Positions 3,401 to 19,125 of a stretch of DNA of 22,584 nt are shown here, one piece after another. The stretch is from a virus. Each line of letters starts with the position of its first letter. The first letter of the stretch is position 1. The translations under genes and the position numbers were made by a program. The notes under the pieces are model-generated. The model worked only from the letters and a program-made list of their open reading frames with translations. It was not told the origin of the DNA and ran no database searches. Where the stretch lies: the IMG/VR virus record IMGVR_UViG_3300030419_000119, positions 1 to 22,584 of that record; one strand, written 5' to 3'.

Positions 3401-4019
3401 CGTTTCGTAAGAGTTTTTCAGCTTCGAAAGGGGTCATATTAACAGGAAAGAAAGACGCTTTTACTCTCCAAGGAGAATCTGCATCAATAGGGTCTGAACC
3501 TCTTAACCACTTTTGATAGAAAGAACTGTCTCCTTCGAAAATACGATCAGGATTAACCTGTGCGTCAATTAATTCTTGACGATCTTCTTGATTCATCAAA
3601 GACTCTGTAAGTCCGGAGTACTCTGTTACATCTTCTACAACAGGAATTGCAGGTAAACTCGAACGTCCAGGAATCGGAATTATTGGTCGTCGCGGTTGTG
3701 GGTCAACAGGGTCAATAGAGGGAGGAACATTGACCTCACTAGGAGCGTACATCATTAGATATTGATTCATCGCGTTAGCGATTTCTTTATCTCTATCGTC
3801 TACTAGTTCTAAAGCTCTTTGATCTCCTGCTTCAGCCCGTTCTAATAAGTACTCGGATTGTAAATAACTATTAAGACGCAAAGAATCATTACTTAGAATC
3901 TCGCCAATAGTGTAGTCTGAATCCCCTGCTAGAGAACCAGTAACCTCTTCACTCCATTTATAAAAATCAGGGGTTTGTAGGTACTCATCTAACAGTTCTA
4001 TATTAGATTGGGTTGCCAT
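495..4019 (-). CDS. Large internal virion / DNA-ejection-type protein (1174 aa)
   Basis: This is the largest gene in the window. The product is mostly polar and helical, rich in Glu, Lys, Gln and Ala. Two hydrophobic Gly/Ala-rich stretches (about residues 306-329 and 386-408) could enter a membrane. A Pro-rich linker lies near residues 93-127. Long predicted coiled-coil stretches follow in the second half. Its position after 581- and 730-residue ORFs matches the T7 order gp14, gp15, gp16, where gp16 is 1318 residues and forms part of the ejected core that crosses the cell envelope. Unlike T7 gp16, I see no lytic transglycosylase motif at its N-terminus. Near the C-terminus (residues 1122-1128) there is SRREFFK followed by a short hydrophobic run, which resembles a twin-arginine signal in an unusual place. 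The start ATG lies 2 bases after the previous stop. That it is coding is near certain. The ejection role is inferred from context and size. Confidence 0.85.
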   Translation of the reverse strand: MATQSNIELLDEYLQTPDFYKWSEEVTGSLAGDSDYTIGEILSNDSLRLNSYLQSEYLLERAEAGDQRALELVDDRDKEIANAMNQYLMMYAPSEVNVPPSIDPVDPQPRRPIIPIPGRSSLPAIPVVEDVTEYSGLTESLMNQEDRQELIDAQVNPDRIFEGDSSFYQKWLRGSDPIDADSPWRVKASFFPVNMTPFEAEKLLRNEYPDAELRYINPNDKSMGLAIRVPRKDGAEGEQGEWVALRPQFGYEMLTEETLTMLGQEITPILVEMGLYGGYRKLVKDSVKEAGELLRKESTVGGKIKKGAATATIAGVSAGMGRFLQLAYGNTLFRDEEQANAILAQIEKIEADTSLEEAEREAAVSEKQKELLSLNNISIERAFEDAGLAAALAGAGTLVIGGVLGALSTGWKAVTGSNIPNEILARLQAKISTKGKTPEFSSGELAERTKKAAKAVADEAGTFYRPPAGELTQDDFFKALELELFAQLSPTAKGREVYQSILDNNEKAAENFWQELTENAPELEGISYNDFRDYLVRQQEEYAERAAQASKLRQREIEEQTDLETVLPDQDPEAMLTVDELGSTFTRDVESGGLVYKRNSPEFLYQYDEQYQAAKDAVNAEVSNLADLKYDRKLDSTALIRDEFTEALGGGESKDKIMRTLGEVEASDVIKSMIPMRDGVSILKQLMGVGVDEKGQFLKQADLTFGQLNGMYHALNNLFMTSSDREVRQIATGLRDAVEAQMDDLITFQARKELSAGGIDSPTPDALREKIQEIAGPLMKAQEDLYKLNTSIERRFIRELVDKEPSQIADFVLSASPKQIEDLLGQIYKSPDSIVRLGNLRQLVVENIRKSMGGLPLAEQNKAWSKFLDKNEEQLQALFPEADFLKLKEFKNVQEQALAEIAQVTESLTQLEKELGKPPADFVKDFLLAGKSARLAGKADMSLAEFNKVLQETPELQPYVTALVRDFMRDNFEKQQLDEGGLFQTDNFDVSGFISFINQGLRAGPQGTARLGSLFSQLLGKDVGNQYAKDLRAFGKLLDRGTRRGPKSPIPQGAAATGTIEDFLEETSFAIRMFVPPLTQKGRRITAFLMGYRDKARSDLLQILADPTKLNKLLEARDRSMSRREFFKFIGALAISRGVNIGSEERETAEQRALKAIEGPTTGIMDLYSRVMSI

Positions 4020-9370: not shown

Positions 9371-11250
9371 CTTCTTCCGTTAGGACGAATATCTAAACGA
9401 GTACCACCGATTCTAAAACCAACACCTAGTTGTATGCCTTCATCAGCATCGTCATCAGATTCAAAACGGACTACGGCTTGTCTTGCACGTGCTCGCATAT
9501 CTATTTTAGTAGTGGTCGCTGTAAACGCTGTTGTACTATCCGTAGCTAAGGAATCACCAGGATAATTACGGGTTTTTAACACAGTGTTAATTTGTTGTCC
9601 AGACCCTCCTGTACCCGTAAAACTTACATCTGGAATCATGCGACGAACAAACTGGAAGTTTTCGCCTTCTCCAATATCGAAATCAGCAGACTCTATATAA
9701 ACGTCAGTCATAGGAGAACCGTCTGCATCGTTCCCAGATTCATGATCATAAATATAATAGCTACTGCTTGCTTCTCCTGCTGCTCTAGGATTATTCTCAA
9801 CTCCTTCATCAAGCCACGCGGTACGAGCTAATTTACCAATAGCCCACACTTTATCAACGTAGTTATACGTTACATATCTATCAGGTAAGTCAGAGTCGCT
9901 AGAATTATAAAACCAGCCTACTTCATTAAATTGACGATTAAGAAGTGCAAAAAACTGGAAGTTCTGAGATTCATTAATATCGTCAAATACATAACTATGT
10001 ACACTACACTCTACAGGTTGAACAGATCCGTTATAAACGTAGAACCCTTTACGATCCATCCAGAAAACACCTGCAGGTGAATTAACTGCTGCATTCGGGC
10101 CAATTAATCCCACGCCCTCGTTAACTAGATTAACGCCAAAAGTGAGCGGTGCGCCTATAAACTGTAAACTATATAGCGCGGTGTCTGTCCAGATCAGAGT
10201 TTCTTGTCTAGCTCGTAACCCGCCTATGATTTGTGACCCTGAAGAAAGCCGTAAGTTTCCTGCAGTATTCGTACTTTTCGGCTCCCACTCTAAAATATTT
10301 TCTTGATCACACCAGCTGATTAACAACGGATCAAGAACATTGGAACGAGTTGGGCCTGAGATTGGGTCAGAGCCAAGTACTAACACATGACGATCTACCG
10401 CAGAAACTAAAATCTGAAGACCTAGTGTAGGGGGAAGGTTAGCGTCTGTTACATCTTCTAAGGCTTTTGCCCTAACTGAAACGGTATCTGAATTATCCCA
10501 GAGAAAAATACCTCCCGCTCTTACGCAAGAAACCATATCCTCGCCAAAATTATCAATAGACCATAACCGTAACTGGCTAGACGCACTTAATGCACTAACT
10601 GATCCAAACGTGCCGCTACCCCATGTACCAGAACCCCAACCAGAACCAGACACGAACGTATCGAGTCCAATATTAATCTGATACGCGCCGACAACACTAC
10701 TTCCTCCATTACCACTGTCGCTAGCATTTGCTGTGACTGTAGCTCCATCTGTGTCTTTAGCGGTAAACGTATATGCGTTAGCTGAAGTAACCGCAAGAAC
10801 TTCATATTCTTGATTAAGAACAGCAGCGGTTACATTACCACCTAAACTCGCAGCTCCGCTGAACGTAACAAAATCCCCTGCTACTGCTCCGTGGTTCGTA
10901 TCTGTTGCTGTAATAGTAGAAGAACCATTACTGGCTGAAAAAGTAACATCTCCCGCGCTCGTAGTTAAACGAAGAGGAGTCACGTCATAAAAAGCATCAC
11001 CCTCTTGAATATACAGCTTTAGACGAGTTCCAATACCTAAGAATCTTGTGCCTTGAAGATTAACCCAAGCATGAAGTTTACGTCCTGTTCCCTTATACGC
11101 ATTAAGAGAGTTTTTAGCCCAGCCCCCTATCTTTTCTGGAAATCCTTTTCTAAATCGAACTAAATTACCGTCAAACCACCCGTTTTCAGCAGTGTATGCT
11201 GTACCTTCCTTATTTATTCCAGGATTAAAAATAAATTTCTGAAGAGGCAT
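9367..11250 (-). CDS. P22 gp10-like tail hub / packaged-DNA stabilisation protein (627 aa)
   Basis: The N-terminus reads FNPGINKEGTAYTAENGW, then VRFRKGFPEKIGGW, a signature I associate with phage stabilisation proteins of the P22 gp10 type. These sit below the portal and close the filled head in short-tailed phages. The rest is beta-rich with many Trp/Tyr/Gly strands, consistent with a beta-propeller-like fold. At 627 residues it is longer than P22 gp10 (472). Part of the excess is an inserted domain at about residues 100-200 with GDFVTFSGAASLGG, YEVLAVTSANAYTFTA and then GSGWGSGTWGSGTFGS at 202-217. That Gly/Trp motif recurs in the repeat protein at 18416-19117. The gene starts at ATG 11250, overlapping the lysozyme stop as TAATG, and ends ATGA-coupled to the next gene. 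Family assignment is from remembered sequence pattern. Confidence 0.75.
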   Translation of the reverse strand: MPLQKFIFNPGINKEGTAYTAENGWFDGNLVRFRKGFPEKIGGWAKNSLNAYKGTGRKLHAWVNLQGTRFLGIGTRLKLYIQEGDAFYDVTPLRLTTSAGDVTFSASNGSSTITATDTNHGAVAGDFVTFSGAASLGGNVTAAVLNQEYEVLAVTSANAYTFTAKDTDGATVTANASDSGNGGSSVVGAYQINIGLDTFVSGSGWGSGTWGSGTFGSVSALSASSQLRLWSIDNFGEDMVSCVRAGGIFLWDNSDTVSVRAKALEDVTDANLPPTLGLQILVSAVDRHVLVLGSDPISGPTRSNVLDPLLISWCDQENILEWEPKSTNTAGNLRLSSGSQIIGGLRARQETLIWTDTALYSLQFIGAPLTFGVNLVNEGVGLIGPNAAVNSPAGVFWMDRKGFYVYNGSVQPVECSVHSYVFDDINESQNFQFFALLNRQFNEVGWFYNSSDSDLPDRYVTYNYVDKVWAIGKLARTAWLDEGVENNPRAAGEASSSYYIYDHESGNDADGSPMTDVYIESADFDIGEGENFQFVRRMIPDVSFTGTGGSGQQINTVLKTRNYPGDSLATDSTTAFTATTTKIDMRARARQAVVRFESDDDADEGIQLGVGFRIGGTRLDIRPNGRR

Positions 11251-11669
11251 TACTGGTACTCTCCTGTTCGTATAATCTCTGTAACTTCTACAGCACGATC
11301 TCCAACTTGTTCACTCCATCTGCTGTCCATAAATTCATCAGCAGCGTTTTCAAATTCTTCGCGAGACATCGCCTCTAAAGCCTTTACAAAACCTCTTAGC
11401 CTTGTTTGACCAAGATTGAAACTAAGGTCTATCATGGCGTCTTGTCTAGCGTCATTTAAACCTGCAAACCAGTAGTATTCTTCTGTAAGCTCTTCTCGAA
11501 CTCTTTTAATATCGTTATTTAGAAGATAGTCAATCTCATCTTCAGAAAGCCCTAGTCCATCTTCACTTATATTGCGACCAACACCTATCGTTTCGTAGCC
11601 TGCGCTACACAAATAAACTTTATCTCGAACGCCTTCATGTCTTCTTAGCATCTCAATCAATTCGTTCAC
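11250..11669 (-). CDS. Endolysin, T4-type lysozyme (GH24 muramidase), 139 aa
   Basis: The enzyme hydrolyses the beta-1,4 bond between N-acetylmuramic acid and N-acetylglucosamine in peptidoglycan at the end of infection. The catalytic arrangement of the family, Glu-8 residues-Asp/Cys-5 residues-Thr, is intact: E12, C21 and T27 within HEGVRDKVYLCSAGYETIGVG. Cys replaces the Asp, as in some phage lysozymes. Downstream, DLSFNLG, an Arg/Phe patch and SRWSEQVGDRA match the usual GH24 C-terminal lobe. The frame can be extended to ATG 11708, but the GTG at 11669 is preceded by a perfect AGGAGG six bases away and gives a compact protein beginning just before the catalytic helix. The 17-base overlap with the o-spanin gene fits lysis-cassette organisation. 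No signal peptide is present, so export needs a holin. Confidence 0.92.
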   Translation of the reverse strand: MNELIEMLRRHEGVRDKVYLCSAGYETIGVGRNISEDGLGLSEDEIDYLLNNDIKRVREELTEEYYWFAGLNDARQDAMIDLSFNLGQTRLRGFVKALEAMSREEFENAADEFMDSRWSEQVGDRAVEVTEIIRTGEYQ

Positions 11670-12039
11670 TGACTTCCTCCTTGTTATCGGATTCTTTATA
11701 ATAGTCAATTATAGATAAAACTTGTCTAATGTATCGCTTAATTTCAGCCATATTGTGCGACAAGTTTTCATATCCTTTTGTAGAAAGCCCATAAAATGCG
11801 TTAGTGGGCGCATTGCCTTCCTGTAAGTCAATTAAGTATTCTTCCATCGTTGAAGGAGTTAGAACAGTCCATTCAACAGGAAGAGTGTTAACTTTATTCG
11901 GAAGAGGAGGATGATATTGTGGAGCAGGCTCTACAACAGTAACCACCTCTACTTGTTTGGTTTCTGGCAAAGACGGTTTACGGTCAAGTACTGAACAACC
12001 GTTAAGAATTAGACACAGTAGTAATACTTTCCAATTCAT
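11653..12039 (-). CDS. Outer-membrane spanin (Rz1-like lipoprotein), 128 aa
   Basis: The N-terminus is a short lipoprotein signal: MNWK, a run of Leu/Ile, then the lipobox LNGC with the lipidated Cys at residue 15. A Pro-rich stretch follows (about residues 39-60), typical of o-spanins. The C-terminal part contains LTPSTMEEYL, YGLSTKGYENLSHNMAEIKRY and a short helix, a pattern I recall from spanin-region proteins of marine podoviruses. Together with the upstream inner-membrane spanin it would bridge the periplasm and fuse inner and outer membranes in the last step of lysis, implying a Gram-negative host. Its start lies inside the i-spanin gene (38-base overlap, different frame), with AAGGA about eight bases upstream. 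Its end overlaps the lysozyme gene. Confidence 0.85.
   Translation of the reverse strand: MNWKVLLLCLILNGCSVLDRKPSLPETKQVEVVTVVEPAPQYHPPLPNKVNTLPVEWTVLTPSTMEEYLIDLQEGNAPTNAFYGLSTKGYENLSHNMAEIKRYIRQVLSIIDYYKESDNKEEVSERID
11676..11681 (-). promoter_or_regulatory. Strong ribosome-binding site fixing the endolysin GTG start
   Basis: The minus strand reads AGGAGG, then a six-base spacer (AAGTCA), then GTG at 11669. It lies inside the end of the o-spanin gene. The upstream ATG at 11708 has no comparable site, so this decides the start of the lysozyme. Confidence 0.85.
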
Positions 12040-12406
12040 TCAATACATCCTTAGTTCCTTTATTGATGATTTTTTCAATCAACTTAGGTTTTTTGAGCGA
12101 TAGAACAGTGAGGTCGTGTTTAGCAAATTTCTCTCTAATGTTTTTAACCTCTTCCTGTGCCTTTTGATTCTCTTCAGTTAGTGTTTCTACTTTTGCTAAC
12201 ATCAGTGTGTGTTTTTCGACAGTCTGTTTTAAGTTTTCATTTTGTTGCTGGATTGTTCCTTCCAGGATTTTTTCGTTCTGCAACGCACGTTCTAGCTGTA
12301 TGTGAAAAGATTCAAGTTCCGCTTGTGATTTATCATAGTACAGCTTAAATGCTGCTGCTGTAACAGCCAGTGCTAACCCTAGCCCTATGCTGAGTTTAAA
12401 TCCCAT
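12002..12406 (-). CDS. Inner-membrane spanin (Rz-like), 134 aa
   Basis: The protein has one N-terminal membrane anchor (about residues 4-22) followed by a long periplasmic coiled coil rich in Glu, Lys, Gln and Leu. It ends with KKPKLIEKIINKGTKDVLNEL, a C-terminal pattern I associate with phage i-spanins. It should pair with the overlapping lipoprotein gene downstream. The frame could begin at ATG 12451, but the ATG at 12406 puts the start one base after the stop of the preceding gene and places the membrane helix directly at the N-terminus, so I use that start. The Rz/Rz1 arrangement next to a GH24 lysozyme makes the assignment secure. Confidence 0.87.
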   Translation of the reverse strand: MGFKLSIGLGLALAVTAAAFKLYYDKSQAELESFHIQLERALQNEKILEGTIQQQNENLKQTVEKHTLMLAKVETLTEENQKAQEEVKNIREKFAKHDLTVLSLKKPKLIEKIINKGTKDVLNELESITTVSNS

Positions 12407-12407
12407 T

Positions 12408-12728
12408 TTATTTCCTTGCCATATAAGCAGTAGCTCCGAAATACAGCCCAACTACACTAGCTTGAGAAAGAAACAACATATCACTTAGAGAAGCTAATGT
12501 AGACAAGCGATCGGCAGGAACGAAAGGAGCAAGAGGAAGCAAGGCAAAGACACACATACTGACCATGGCCACCCATGCCATTTTTCTTTGGCTATCAGCT
12601 TTTTCTTCTTGTAATTCCAATTGCAACATTTCTTGATGTCTTGCGAGTTCTTCATCGCTTACTATCCCGTCTCCGTCTGTGTCGTACTCTGCATAACGAG
12701 ACCTTGGTTCAAGTTTTTTTGCGTTCAT
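12408..12728 (-). CDS. EF-hand-bearing two-helix membrane protein, holin candidate (106 aa)
   Basis: Residues 16-27 (DTDGDGIVSDEE) form a canonical EF-hand calcium-binding loop: Asp at positions 1, 3 and 5, a hydrophobic residue at 7, Ser at 9 and Glu at 12. An amphipathic charged helix follows (28-48), then two hydrophobic helices at about 50-70 and 83-103 separated by a short polar turn (PADRLS), and a basic C-terminus (ARK). Two helices and small size fit a class II-like holin, and it sits directly upstream of the spanin pair and lysozyme. I recall similar proteins in other marine phages, but no functional proof. A holin whose cytoplasmic part binds calcium would be unusual. It could instead be an antiholin or another membrane regulator. 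Confidence 0.82.
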   Translation of the reverse strand: MNAKKLEPRSRYAEYDTDGDGIVSDEELARHQEMLQLELQEEKADSQRKMAWVAMVSMCVFALLPLAPFVPADRLSTLASLSDMLFLSQASVVGLYFGATAYMARK

Positions 12729-12731
12729 AAT

Positions 12732-12986
12732 CTATCCATCGTCTTTTTTAACTTTCGGGTCTCTAAATATATATTTAACTCCCGCCTCACTCGTTAAGAT
12801 CTCTCTAACTTCACAATATCCATCAAAATGTTTAGTTTTACTATGTATCCAATTATGAGTTCCAACACTCTGATGAATTAAAGCATCACGGTACTCTAAG
12901 CAACTTGTTAATTCAGTAAAATACAATTCAAGGTTAGGTTCTCCCTGCTTCAGGATAATTAACACAAAAATCATCATTGTTCTCAC
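12732..12986 (-). CDS. Small protein with hydrophobic N-terminus, lysis region (about 84 aa)
   Basis: The frame begins with GTG at 12986, which overlaps the TGA of the preceding open frame as GTGA. In-frame ATGs at 12977 and 12974 are alternative starts. The N-terminus (MMIFVLIIL) is a short hydrophobic run that could be a signal peptide or anchor. The remainder is polar with two Cys residues (CLEYRDAL and YCEVREI) that might form a disulphide in the periplasm. The C-terminus is Lys/Asp-rich. No family is recognised. Position between membrane proteins and the lysis genes suggests an envelope-directed accessory. The start choice is uncertain. Confidence 0.65.
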   Translation of the reverse strand: MRTMMIFVLIILKQGEPNLELYFTELTSCLEYRDALIHQSVGTHNWIHSKTKHFDGYCEVREILTSEAGVKYIFRDPKVKKDDG

Positions 12987-13261
12987 AATCTTCTCTTTTT
13001 TAAAATTGCTTGTGTTACTTCTGCTTCAGGTCTTACCAACTCCCATGTCAACATTTCTACCCTAACACTATGCGCTGTCCCTAAGACACGAGGCATTGTA
13101 TTCCGAATATATATCTGCCCTCCGTATTCACATTTTTGTTTGTTCCACCTTAACCAGTCAATAGCAACCTCATGACGTTTAGATGGCGGTTGAATCGTTT
13201 CTAAGAGCCTCCATTCTCGTAAATCACAATCTAAGTTCGGATTTTTTGGATCGTAATTTAC
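12983..13261 (-). CDS. Coding-like open frame with no usable start codon (about 92 codons)
   Basis: The minus-strand frame is open from 13411 to the TGA at 12985-12983. No ATG, GTG or TTG occurs in the first roughly 85 codons. The segment from about 13261 downward looks like real protein: YDPKNPNLDCDLREWRLLET, then KRHEVAIDWLRWNKQKCEYG, IYIRNTMPRVLG and MLTWELVRPEAEV, with Trp-rich and charged composition. The part above 13261 overlaps the 96-residue gene and looks like an out-of-frame shadow. The TGA overlaps the GTG of the next gene, the coupling seen between real genes here. Options are a non-standard start (GGAGG occurs at about 13206-13210, upstream of ACG 13198 and ATT 13195), a -1 frameshift fusion to the 96-residue protein, or a frameshift mutation or assembly error. 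No family is recognised. Confidence 0.5.
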   Translation of the reverse strand, partial: VNYDPKNPNLDCDLREWRLLETIQPPSKRHEVAIDWLRWNKQKCEYGGQIYIRNTMPRVLGTAHSVRVEMLTWELVRPEAEVTQAILKKRRL

Positions 13262-13551
13262 TAATTCGCGGCTTGTTTGATCATCAACTCTATTAACGTC
13301 TGAAGTTTCGCATCCGAGTCTCGAGCTGTCTCGTTCATCTGTGCAAGCGACTGAGTTATCTGTTCTATCGCTTGTGCGTTTAACTTTCCCGTTGTATCGG
13401 CTTCTTCCACCTTAACCTTTATCTCGGCTACTTCGTCTGCAGTAGCCTGCGCCTGCGCTTGCATAGATCCCCACGCTATTGCACCAGATAAAAGAGCAGC
13501 ACCGATAGGTAACGCCCACGTTGGGATTTTTATACTGTTTCCTTCGCTCAT
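13261..13551 (-). CDS. Small membrane-anchored coiled-coil protein (96 aa)
   Basis: One hydrophobic segment lies near the N-terminus (about residues 12-28, WALPIGAALLSGAIAW), followed by a long Ala/Glu/Gln-rich region (about 36-93) with coiled-coil character. The start at ATG 13551 is well supported by AGGAG six bases upstream. The layout, a short cytoplasmic N-terminus, one helix and an extended coil, resembles an i-spanin or a phage membrane scaffold, but a better spanin pair is present downstream. Its stop lies where the start-less frame described at 12983-13261 begins to look coding, so this product may be longer if a -1 frameshift occurs. The exact role is unknown. Confidence 0.75.
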   Translation of the reverse strand: MSEGNSIKIPTWALPIGAALLSGAIAWGSMQAQAQATADEVAEIKVKVEEADTTGKLNAQAIEQITQSLAQMNETARDSDAKLQTLIELMIKQAAN

Positions 13552-13552
13552 G

Positions 13553-13798
13553 TTATGCTCCTAAAAACTGTGGAATTAGAATACTTCCCACAATTAATAT
13601 ATATACGCCCCAGATCATTCTTTCTAATTTTTGAAATTTATTAGACCCTTCAGCTAATCGCTCTTCGATACGTTCATACCTTAAAGCACATTCTCTTTCA
13701 TGAGTTCTTATTTCGTTCAGAGCTGCTTGTGCGTCTGAAGCAGGAATTGGTTTTTTCCTGGGTGTTTTAGACTTACTTGTCGTCTTTTTTGCCGGCAT
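13553..13798 (-). CDS. Small basic protein with C-terminal membrane helix (81 aa)
   Basis: The N-terminus is highly basic (KKTTSKSKTPRKKP). A charged helical middle follows (NEIRTHERECALRYERIEERL), and a single membrane helix lies at the C-terminus (about residues 62-79, IWGVYILIVGSILIP). I recall proteins with the HE..CALRYERIE pattern and a C-terminal helix from phage lysis regions, where they are often called holin-like. The start overlaps the preceding stop as TAATG. A tail-anchored topology with a cytoplasmic basic head is inferred. Whether it is a holin, antiholin or membrane tether cannot be told from sequence. Confidence 0.75.
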   Translation of the reverse strand: MPAKKTTSKSKTPRKKPIPASDAQAALNEIRTHERECALRYERIEERLAEGSNKFQKLERMIWGVYILIVGSILIPQFLGA

Positions 13799-14001: not shown

Positions 14002-14234
14002 TATTCTTGCTCCGGAGTAACCGCTTCTAGTTGTTGCGCATACCAGTTAAACGCTGCCATATGTGTGTCGAGTTGTTTTTGATTAGAGTTAATAACCTGC
14101 GTTATTTGAGCAATCTGTTCTCTAAGCTCGTCCATCCTGGTATTTAACATCTCAGGATTAGGAGGTAGTTGAGCAACTTCAGCTTCTTCTACAACTTCTT
14201 CATCTACAACTTCTTTAGTGTCTTGTTCCGTCAT
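14001..14234 (-). CDS. Small acidic coiled-coil protein (77 aa)
   Basis: The N-terminal third is very acidic (repeated Glu/Val, EVVDEEVVEEAEVA), followed by PPNPEMLNTRMDELREQIAQ and a predicted coiled coil to about residue 60. There is no membrane segment. Two consecutive ATGs occur at 14237 and 14234. AAGG lies three bases before the first and six before the second, so the second is preferred. The gene overlaps the end of the oxygenase-like gene by about 20 bases. It may act with the membrane proteins after it, but no family is recognised. Confidence 0.72.
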   Translation of the reverse strand: MTEQDTKEVVDEEVVEEAEVAQLPPNPEMLNTRMDELREQIAQITQVINSNQKQLDTHMAAFNWYAQQLEAVTPEQE

Positions 14235-14919
14235 CATCTACCTTCCATACGTTTAAATTTGCAGCGACAGTACGCCGTTCTCCTTCACCCTCGAAAGGGT
14301 AAACCATATGCGTCAACCAGCTAGGAAACATCAAGAACTTTCCGACTTCTGGCTTGATTACAAAACTTTGTGGGGGAGCTAATCGCTCCGTATCTAATAA
14401 ACTGTTTCGGCCATAGCTAAACGCAAGGCAACCGTCTGCATTGCCAGAGGAGTTATATAAGCTGTACTCTGCACTCCCCGCCGTAGGCTGGTCTAGGATT
14501 TGTTGTGGTACTTTTGTCCATGTTGTGCAGGAGACTCCCATAATAGTTTTAGTACCATGATCATGTATGGGATTGTAATCGCCAGCGTAAGAATGAACAG
14601 ACCAAAGCTCATCAGTTAATACTTCTCTTTTGCCTTTCAATGGGTTGCCAGACTGAGCGCAGAACTGCTTGACGTAATCCATTGCCAAGCCCTGAATCGT
14701 CCAGTTAAAATCTTTCAGCTCTTCACAATGATGATCCATTGTAAGCTGCTGTCCATGGGCTATCTGACCCACTAGCGTACCCGCATGACTTTTACGTTCC
14801 TGATCTACCATTAGCTTATCTAGGTAGTCGTTAAGAGTCCCTACCATGTTTTCAGATAGTTGTGCCTCCAGCATAAATACTGCTGGTAGCGTATGAAATG
14901 TAAAGTGTTGCGGCTCCAT
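14215..14919 (-). CDS. 2OG-Fe(II) oxygenase-like protein (234 aa)
   Basis: Enzymes of this type use 2-oxoglutarate, O2 and Fe(II) to hydroxylate a substrate. The double-stranded beta-helix signature is visible: NPIHDHG at residues 116-122 (candidate ligands H119 and H121 or D120), MGVSCTTW shortly after, GKFLMFPSWLTHMVYPF (193-209) giving the distal His H204, and ERRTVAANLNVW (214-225) giving the Arg (R215 or R216) that would bind 2OG. This matches the phage-type family often annotated as putative 2OG-Fe(II) oxygenase (PF13759-like). It lies directly after two fibre-accessory genes (TAATG start overlap) and before the membrane cassette. Its substrate is unknown. A virion or fibre protein, a host protein or a nucleotide are all possible. 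Family confidence is good, function low. Confidence 0.82.
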   Translation of the reverse strand: MEPQHFTFHTLPAVFMLEAQLSENMVGTLNDYLDKLMVDQERKSHAGTLVGQIAHGQQLTMDHHCEELKDFNWTIQGLAMDYVKQFCAQSGNPLKGKREVLTDELWSVHSYAGDYNPIHDHGTKTIMGVSCTTWTKVPQQILDQPTAGSAEYSLYNSSGNADGCLAFSYGRNSLLDTERLAPPQSFVIKPEVGKFLMFPSWLTHMVYPFEGEGERRTVAANLNVWKVDDDGTRH

Positions 14920-15260
14920 TAGCTAGGTATCACAAACTCGTTATTAGCTACAGGTTCTTTAGGTGGGTTAGTAATTACCGAATCGTATTGACTTGCAAAC
15001 ACTGCATCCCACTTTGCTGTTGGGCAAAGGTCTTCCAGTTCTTTTTTAGTCCAATCACCTTCAGCTTTGGCTGTAAAGTTAGTAGTGGTTGAACCGTCTG
15101 GGTTTACTTCACTAGCCTCAACTGTTTCGTTTTTATCATTCGTGTAATAATCCGCTTCGCCTTCAGTACCTTGCTCGTACTTCATTGTAAGACTCCAACG
15201 AACTACTTTTCCGTCCAAAACAAAAGGTACTGCATCAGTTAATGTTTTCTTAATAGCCAT
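14919..15260 (-). CDS. Fibre-region accessory protein, second of two paralogues (113 aa)
   Basis: The product is a soluble protein clearly related to the neighbour at 15270-15608. Both share KTL..A.P, GKVV.W, KYE.GTEGEADY, NFT.KAE.DW, CP...WD.VF..QYD.VITNP and a C-terminal VIP. The start is supported by AGGAG six bases before ATG 15260. I recall similar small proteins downstream of fibres in marine phages. Possible roles are a tail-fibre assembly factor or a minor adhesin. No enzyme motif or membrane segment is present. Tandem duplication with about half of positions identical by eye suggests divergence after duplication. Confidence 0.8.
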   Translation of the reverse strand: MAIKKTLTDAVPFVLDGKVVRWSLTMKYEQGTEGEADYYTNDKNETVEASEVNPDGSTTTNFTAKAEGDWTKKELEDLCPTAKWDAVFASQYDSVITNPPKEPVANNEFVIPS

Positions 15261-15269
15261 TTAAGTCTC

Positions 15270-15608
15270 CTAATCTGGAATAACGTAACTAGTATTTTCA
15301 GTTCGTTCTTTCTCTGGGTTTGTAATAACCTGATCGTATTGAGCGTCAAAAACCTGATCCCAAAGTTCGATTGGGCAAATTGCGATTATGTCTGCTTTAG
15401 ACCAATCAGCCTCTGCCTTCGGAGTAAAGTTGTTGATAGTTTTGCTAGGTTTTTGTCTAACCGCAGGGATGTTTTTATGAAAAACATTAGAGTGGTAGTC
15501 AGCTTCGCCTTCAGTGCCTTTTTCATACTTAAAGTCTATGTACCAGCTAACCACCTTTCCTTCTTCATTAGTAGGAATTGCTTTGATTAGTGTTTTAGTA
15601 ACCGACAT
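15270..15608 (-). CDS. Fibre-region accessory protein, first of two paralogues (112 aa)
   Basis: This gene follows the tail fibre within 3 bases and starts after a perfect AGGAGG at six-base spacing. It shares its overall motif plan with the next gene (KYEKGTEGEADY, NFTPKAEADW, QYDQVITNP, VIPD) but differs strongly in the middle, about residues 41-58, where its partner has a more acidic loop. The conserved ends and variable centre would fit a binding loop on a common scaffold. It has no signal peptide or membrane helix. A fibre-tip or chaperone role is an inference from position. Confidence 0.8.
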   Translation of the reverse strand: MSVTKTLIKAIPTNEEGKVVSWYIDFKYEKGTEGEADYHSNVFHKNIPAVRQKPSKTINNFTPKAEADWSKADIIAICPIELWDQVFDAQYDQVITNPEKERTENTSYVIPD

Positions 15609-18415: not shown

Positions 18416-19117
18416 TTATGCTACCTCTTTCCAATTAGGTGTCTGGCTATCGTCAATAGCCGTCCAATTTGGTGTTTGACTTGTACTAACCCCCGACCAG
18501 CTTGGCGTTTGGCTGTCGTCAACCAAGCTCCAAATAAGTGGTGTAGTTGTTGATACTGTAACCGAATTACCCGATACCCCAACAATTGCATCACCATTGA
18601 TGCTAACGCTTGCCGTAGACGCGACAAGCTCTGTGCTAGTGACAGGAACCGTATTGCTTGTAATCGTCGTAACGCTGCCAACAGATGCTGTCGCAGAGTT
18701 TCCTGTCGGGGATACCGTTGCTGTACCAGTAACCGTAACCGATCCCAGACTGACTGTAGACGAGTTTCCACTTGGCGATACGTTTGCATCGGCAGAGACC
18801 GATACCGATCCAACCGATGCGGTAGCTGCGTTACCTGATGGCGATACATTTGCCGTACCTGTGACACTAACCGAACCAACGCTTGCAGTAGCAGCATTGC
18901 CAGATACAGACACACTCGCACTAGCGGATACAGATACCGATCCGACAGAGACTGTTGCCGAATTTCCTGTTGCTGTAACATTCGCATCCGCGCTAACTGA
19001 AACAGATCCGACAGACGCTGTACTCGCTGGGAAAGCAGACCCATTACCCCACGTTCCCTCACCCCATCCATGAGATGAGGAATTCCATCCATCAAATGCA
19101 ACTTTGACATCTGCCAC
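18416..19117 (-). CDS. Repeat-built tail/virion surface protein (233 aa)
   Basis: The N-terminus contains SHGWGEGTWGNG (residues 15-26). Six repeats of 22 residues follow (SVGS at 35, 57, 79, 101, 123 and 145), of the type ATASVGSVSV.GTANVSPSGN. Each can be split into two 11-residue beta strands. The C-terminal end has three 11-residue repeats of DDSQTPNW type (SQTP.W at 202, 213 and 224). The composition is almost only Ser, Thr, Val, Ala, Gly and Asn with no Cys or Lys in the repeats, as in secreted or virion beta-solenoids. The start is GTG at 19117 with AAGG six bases upstream. A second open frame on the same strand covers the same DNA but has no such structure. The position between a structural gene and the fibre suggests a tail appendage or fibre-connector. 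Confidence 0.83.
   Translation of the reverse strand: MADVKVAFDGWNSSSHGWGEGTWGNGSAFPASTASVGSVSVSADANVTATGNSATVSVGSVSVSASASVSVSGNAATASVGSVSVTGTANVSPSGNAATASVGSVSVSADANVSPSGNSSTVSLGSVTVTGTATVSPTGNSATASVGSVTTITSNTVPVTSTELVASTASVSINGDAIVGVSGNSVTVSTTTPLIWSLVDDSQTPSWSGVSTSQTPNWTAIDDSQTPNWKEVA
18431..18532 (-). repeat. Three 33-bp units coding 11-residue Trp repeats
   Basis: These encode W..VDDSQTPSW-type units with SQTP.W at residues 202, 213 and 224, at the C-terminal end of the 233-residue protein. The 11-residue spacing is half of the 22-residue repeat preceding it. Confidence 0.88.
18674..19024 (-). repeat. Six 66-bp units coding 22-residue beta repeats
   Basis: The period is exact across six units in the protein sequence. 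At the DNA level the units are recognisably alike (for example repeated gataccgatcc-type blocks on the plus strand) but clearly diverged. They are coding repeats. Confidence 0.9.
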
Positions 19118-19125
19118 ATCAGACC

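Follow-up and report, generated by a model that had tools for sequence, protein, structure and literature searches.

In phage lambda, the G/GT gene expresses its longer product by a -1 slip at the heptamer G_GGA_AAG. Genes for tail assembly chaperones of the lambda type are located before the tape measure gene, and their products work in tail assembly. In bacterial -1 frameshift genes, a 3' structure or an upstream SD motif that stimulates slippage is common but not universal. Two known types of lysis protein are also of interest for comparison: the antiholin RI of phage T4, a small periplasmic protein that binds and blocks the holin, and the Rz-like i-spanins, which consist of an N-terminal TM segment and a periplasmic coiled coil and have an Rz1 lipoprotein as partner.

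Frameshifting by -1 is well known in phages, the well-documented cases being for the most part tail chaperones and extensions of virion proteins (PMC5009743; PMC10885494), and tail chaperones made up 2,397 of the 2,476 annotated frameshift genes of phages in one survey (PMC10885494). G_GGA_AAG has been named as highly shift-prone in -1 frameshifting of the lambda type (PMC5009743), and a systematic test in E. coli found GGGAAAG, AAAAAAG and CCCAAAG to be the most efficient -1 motifs and A_AAG to be the best tetramer (PMC4066793). PRFect names "lysins" among the genes reported to frameshift; no report of a frameshift in a membrane protein of the lysis region of a dsDNA phage was found in the literature searched, which included few subscription journals.

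The locus described here belongs to the window, a stretch of 22,584 nucleotides from the IMG/VR virus record IMGVR_UViG_3300030419_000119, in which an open frame of 142 codons on the minus strand (12983-13411) had been noted as coding-like and as start-less for about 85 codons. The starts are indeed absent, and the stretch without them is longer than had been stated, the first in-frame ATG, GTG or TTG being ATG 13096 at codon 106. The frame is the -1 frame relative to a 96-aa ORF with a single TM segment, which is strongly conserved in the 0 frame and has homologues at 78 loci. The initial annotation had found no classical slippery heptamer in the right frame, but G_GGA_AAG is present in the 0 frame, inside both frames and about 20 nt downstream of the point where the -1 frame opens. 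A slip at this site would yield a fusion of 189 aa, with 56 residues from the membrane protein and 133 from the -1 frame. The features of the pair, all on the minus strand, are:

13261-13551, minus strand: 0-frame ORF of 96 aa with an N-terminal TM segment followed by a coiled-coil-like region; the predicted short product, ending at the stop TAG 13263-13261
13390-13384, minus strand: slippery heptamer G_GGA_AAG in the 0 frame (ACA ACG GGA AAG TTA), seen in the sequence, with strong heptamers in relatives
13344-13374, minus strand: possible hairpin CAAGCGAU/GUCGCUUG, 9 nt 3' of the heptamer
12983-13384, minus strand: -1 part of the predicted fusion, 3' of the slip, 133 codons and TGA
13264-13384, minus strand: overlap read in both frames; its -1 reading is a stop-free linker whose amino acid sequence is not conserved
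12986-13264, minus strand: C-terminal domain of 92 residues (93 counting the first linker residue) with two invariant Cys and a predicted five-helix fold

This arrangement is like that of lambda G/GT, also a gene of a dsDNA phage, in which a -1 shift adds a C-terminal domain to a minority of the products (PMC5009743). A tail chaperone of this type is ruled out by the TM/coiled-coil product and by the position of the gene beside lysis genes, and the distance from the slip to the 0-frame stop is at least 120 nt, compared with about 26-36 nt for tail chaperones (PMC10885494). In the Ig-like extensions of virion proteins of T3 and other phages, frameshifting likewise adds a domain to part of the population (PMC5009743), whereas the domain found here is predicted to be all-helical and is attached to a membrane protein that is, as far as known, not structural in the virion.

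To find relatives, IMG/VR was searched with both halves of the pair, and two contigs of one bacterial MAG and one GenBank phage were included. The C-terminal domain is encoded at 277 loci, of which 137 are unique, and 113 unique sequences carry the complete pair, a count made after leaving out a family of stand-alone proteins. Without exception, these 113 pairs carry the domain in the -1 frame relative to the membrane protein encoded upstream, and none has a usable start near the domain; the two loci L023 and L261 do have a start codon, but it lies far away, some 225-280 nt upstream of the conserved Cys. The domain is kept in six close IMG/VR relatives, and the extension in the -1 frame is under purifying selection, with pN/pS values of 0.13-0.31 in five groups. 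Judged by this conservation across the 137 unique loci, the start-less frame is real and coding, as the initial annotation had suspected, and the comparison with related genomes that it had suggested finds the frame preserved. Its question whether homologues have an ATG of their own or are fused to the membrane protein has a twofold answer: the full pairs are in the -1 frame, and the stand-alone relatives have their own start. Because the relatives share ancestry, the counts are not independent, and a set of 52 representatives with less than 90% nucleotide identity was used as a partial remedy. The pair is present twice among contigs binned as a Sphingobacteriales MAG (L164 and L165; JAAXIF010000089.1 and JAAXIF010000071.1), which may be phage contigs within the bin or may give a clue to the host.

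Programmed -1 ribosomal frameshifting very probably expresses the frame as the 3' part of one gene, as had been proposed among other readings, and the comparative sequence evidence strongly supports the slip mechanism. What the comparison of relatives demonstrates is the conservation of the slip site, the lack of a start in the -1 frame and a selection for openness of the -1 frame that begins at the slip. The last point follows from a count of synonymous T's, because a codon ending in T creates a -1 stop when it precedes AA, AG or GA. From the slip site to the 0-frame stop, such a stop-creating T was used at none of 1067 chances in the 113 pairs, compared with 514 of 2017 at harmless codons in the same overlap and 275 of 613 at equivalent codons upstream of the slip. 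The 52 representatives gave 0/486 in the overlap, 118/280 upstream and 232/941 at harmless codons (Fisher p 1.6e-47 within the overlap); the count was also run on 79 sequences. Altogether, there is no -1 stop in 5,263 overlap codons versus 405 in 5,889 upstream codons, and the +1 frame of the overlap contains 556 stops. When codons are redrawn synonymously, a single overlap remains free of -1 stops with a probability of about 1%. Where the domain is missing, as in the membrane-protein homologues L039-L042 and L056-L058, there are 7-10 stops in the -1 frame and no strong heptamer. Conservation within the overlap is strong for the 0 frame but does not extend to the -1 amino acids, which rules out dual coding there; thus, the -1 stretch acts as a linker that needs only to be open.

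These observations bear on an alternative raised in part by the initial annotation, namely that the 92 residues are made as a protein of their own from a non-canonical start (ACG 13198, ATT 13195 or a near-cognate codon by the 0-frame stop), perhaps via termination-reinitiation. The absence of ATG, GTG and TTG, the GGAGG upstream of ACG 13198 and the beginning of the conserved part close to the 0-frame stop would all agree with such a start, but the conserved motif YDP.NPN..CDLREW, which contains an invariant Cys, lies upstream of 13198, and neither ACG 13198 nor ATT 13195 is a conserved codon (the GGAGG of the window is GGAGA in L003-L005). Moreover, at any given -1 position a near-cognate codon is present in at most 55% of the relatives, and the -1 frame is open all the way to the slip site; neither this stop avoidance nor the conserved heptamers would be explained by a separate start or by reinitiation. 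Since not one stop-creating T occurs in the overlap, both a non-AUG start near 13198 and an assembly error are ruled out, and separate translation as a whole is very improbable.

Among the 113 full pairs the slip motifs are GGGAAAA (28), GGGAAAG (27), AAAAAAG (23), AAAAAAA (5), A_AAG (29) and A_AAA (1), so that strong heptamers (GGGAAAR or AAAAAAR) are present in 83 of 113 relatives, versus 9.9% expected when synonymous codons are redrawn; the remaining 30 have only the tetramer A_AAR, mostly as A_AAG and in one case as the weak A_AAA. The tripeptide TGK at the slip site is coded with GGGAAAR in 55 of 55 proteins; elsewhere in the same genes, ACG accounts for 158 of 613 Thr codons and GGA for 141 of 432 Gly codons. 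In a second large lineage TGK is replaced by NGQ, an AAAAAAG or A_AAG site is located about 11 codons upstream, and the open -1 frame reaches further 5', with -1 stops starting just upstream of the relocated site. GGGAAAG as such is common in DNA, with four copies within the window, and therefore the case for frameshifting rests on the comparative evidence.

Stimulatory signals were also searched for. RNAalifold together with synonymous-recoding controls gave no convincing excess of stability for a 3' structure in any lineage, the hairpin of the window included, and an upstream SD motif is not consistent across the relatives and shows no excess in the GGGAAAR group, with a strong upstream GGAGG at odd spacing in some A_AAG and AAAAAAR lineages. 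The IS3-family signals use the same slip motifs, A_AAA_AAG and the A_AAG tetramer (PMC4066793), but they serve to express a transposase and have known stimulators, of which none was detected in the family of the window.

Sequence conservation alone cannot tell ribosomal slippage from other slippage, and the frame might instead be changed by RNA polymerase slipping at an A-rich site, in keeping with the AAAAAAG or AAAAAAA of some relatives. This is very unlikely, even more so than a separate start, because the run in GGGAAAR is too short: GGGAAAG contains only three A's, GGGAAAR is the motif in 55 of 113 relatives and A_AAG in 29, and runs as short as those in GGGAAAG or A_AAG are not known to make RNA polymerase slip. 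A mutation or assembly error had also been considered, and an assembly error, a sequencing indel or a recent frameshift mutation in this genome, which the missing start codon by itself might suggest, is ruled out because the 113 unique full-length sequences from many assemblies, as well as the two bacterial-MAG contigs, share the same offset and because the extension is under purifying selection.

Under programmed ribosomal frameshifting, most ribosomes would terminate the 96-aa membrane/coiled-coil protein at TAG 13263-13261, and a fraction would slip back by one base at G_GGA_AAG, read the overlap in the -1 frame, as a linker free to vary in sequence, and append the 92-residue helical domain; the resulting 189-aa fusion would keep the membrane anchor of the short form. 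The slipping would be done by ribosomes and not by RNA polymerase, and both products would be made. The anchor would place the extra domain in the periplasm, where the two invariant Cys might form a disulfide, and the short and the long form could assemble into one oligomer via the shared TM segment and coiled coil. The rate of slipping would then set the ratio of short to long form and might thereby tune a step in the breakdown of the host envelope or its timing.

The domain can be followed beyond the frameshifted pairs. It is homologous to stand-alone phage proteins (MW202825.1, here L085, and L166-L167; hhalign 97%, E 1e-10) in which both Cys are kept, and which are uncharacterised; these proteins (MW202825.1 and L166-L168) differ from the window in having, without any frameshift, their own start, a GTG, and a signal-like N-terminus, MRWWWISIILLCVMLARSAENRC. 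Their genes are located directly upstream of genes for a 3-TM holin (PF11351) and a GH108 endolysin, as shown for L167. In the deposited MW202825.1 (L085, 3935-4207), the CDS begins at 3974 and most of the signal is cut off; the in-frame GTG 3935, which overlaps the previous stop and adds the signal-like N-terminus, is conserved in L166-L168. When the stand-alone relatives were added to the alignment, AlphaFold2 predicted five helices with a pLDDT of 83.6 and a pTM of 0.73; with the frameshift members only, the pLDDT was 53. Three proteins of uncultured phages in BFVD (A0A6J5QTX3, A0A6J5Q980 and A0A6J5PMF2) share the fold, with a Foldseek probability of 1.00 and TM 0.65-0.69; they, too, are uncharacterised. 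Searches of the PDB with the domain gave no significant match by sequence and only generic helical matches by fold, none of them significant (best Z 5.9). T4 RI, which did not come up as a match in these searches, is at most a candidate for a protein that works alike. Since the stand-alone relatives bear signals and lie beside holin and endolysin genes, the frameshifted domain is probably periplasmic. Taken together with the single N-terminal TM segment and the Cys pair, these relatives suggest an N-in, C-out protein whose frameshifted form would display the domain in the periplasm.

The genes that surround the pair, again all on the minus strand, are:

13553-13798, minus strand: upstream small protein with a C-terminal TM segment; its position beside the pair is kept in relatives, and family matches are only weak
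12732-12977, minus strand: downstream small protein with a signal-like N-terminus and a likely start at ATG 12977; homologues lie downstream of the pair in L054, L152 and L165
12408-12728, minus strand: EF-hand-like protein with TM segments (phrog_27150, E 2e-10; weak EF-hand match)
12002-12451, minus strand: Rz-like spanin (phrog_739, E 4e-8)
11653-12039, minus strand: Rz1-like spanin with a lipoprotein-like N-terminus (phrog_812, E 2e-16)
11250-11708, minus strand: endolysin of the phage lysozyme family (PF00959, E 2e-14)

The overlap of the TGA of the frame with the GTG of the next gene had been taken as a sign of gene coupling, but it is weak evidence, because ATG 12977 is a more likely start of that gene than GTG 12986: it gives a signal-peptide-like N-terminus (MMIFVLIIL), and relatives use ATG. 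The product of this gene (12732-12977) contains several Cys, and in L056-L058, where the C-terminal domain is missing, it directly follows the membrane protein.

In the window the pair is thus just upstream of the genes for the EF-hand-like TM protein, the Rz-like and Rz1-like spanins and the lysozyme, the frameshift gene sitting between a tail-spike-like gene and the Rz/Rz1/lysozyme genes, and in relatives it is found near a 3-TM holin and lysozyme or near an M15 endolysin. From two sources, this neighbourhood and remote homology, we infer a role in lysis, which may be antiholin-like, T4 RI-like or spanin-like. The membrane protein has a build similar to that of an Rz-like i-spanin and a weak PHROG similarity (E about 0.007-0.012), but the window already contains an Rz and Rz1 pair with the better match. 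Further upstream, a 2OG-Fe(II) oxygenase (14215-14919, minus strand; phrog_81, E 5e-23) lies just before the lysis-linked small genes, and L054 and L152 have an ORF resembling such an oxygenase next to the pair. The neighbouring ORFs 14919-15260 and 15270-15608 (minus strand; 113 and 112 aa), which have no PHROG match, resemble tandem duplicates, and two long ORFs of 233 and 232 aa (18416-19117 and 18421-19119, minus strand) overlap almost fully in different frames; the two may form a genuine overlapping pair, or only one of them may be a gene.

The second half of such a gene is missed by annotation pipelines because it has no start codon. Within the family the frameshift site shifts in motif and in position but the frame stays the same, so that the evolution of recoding sites becomes testable. 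Tentatively, a widespread marine phage lineage may use -1 frameshifting, and not dual starts or a separate antiholin gene, to control in what proportion a membrane lysis protein is made in its two forms; the rarer long form would show a disulfide-bonded domain in the periplasm by which lysis is regulated or sensed, and the slip site might have re-evolved repeatedly (GGGAAAR, AAAAAAR and A_AAG, with a move of about 11 codons) while the frame was kept. A conserved frameshift in a membrane protein of the lysis region would be a new use of frameshifting, that is, to set the share of a protein that carries an extra periplasmic domain.
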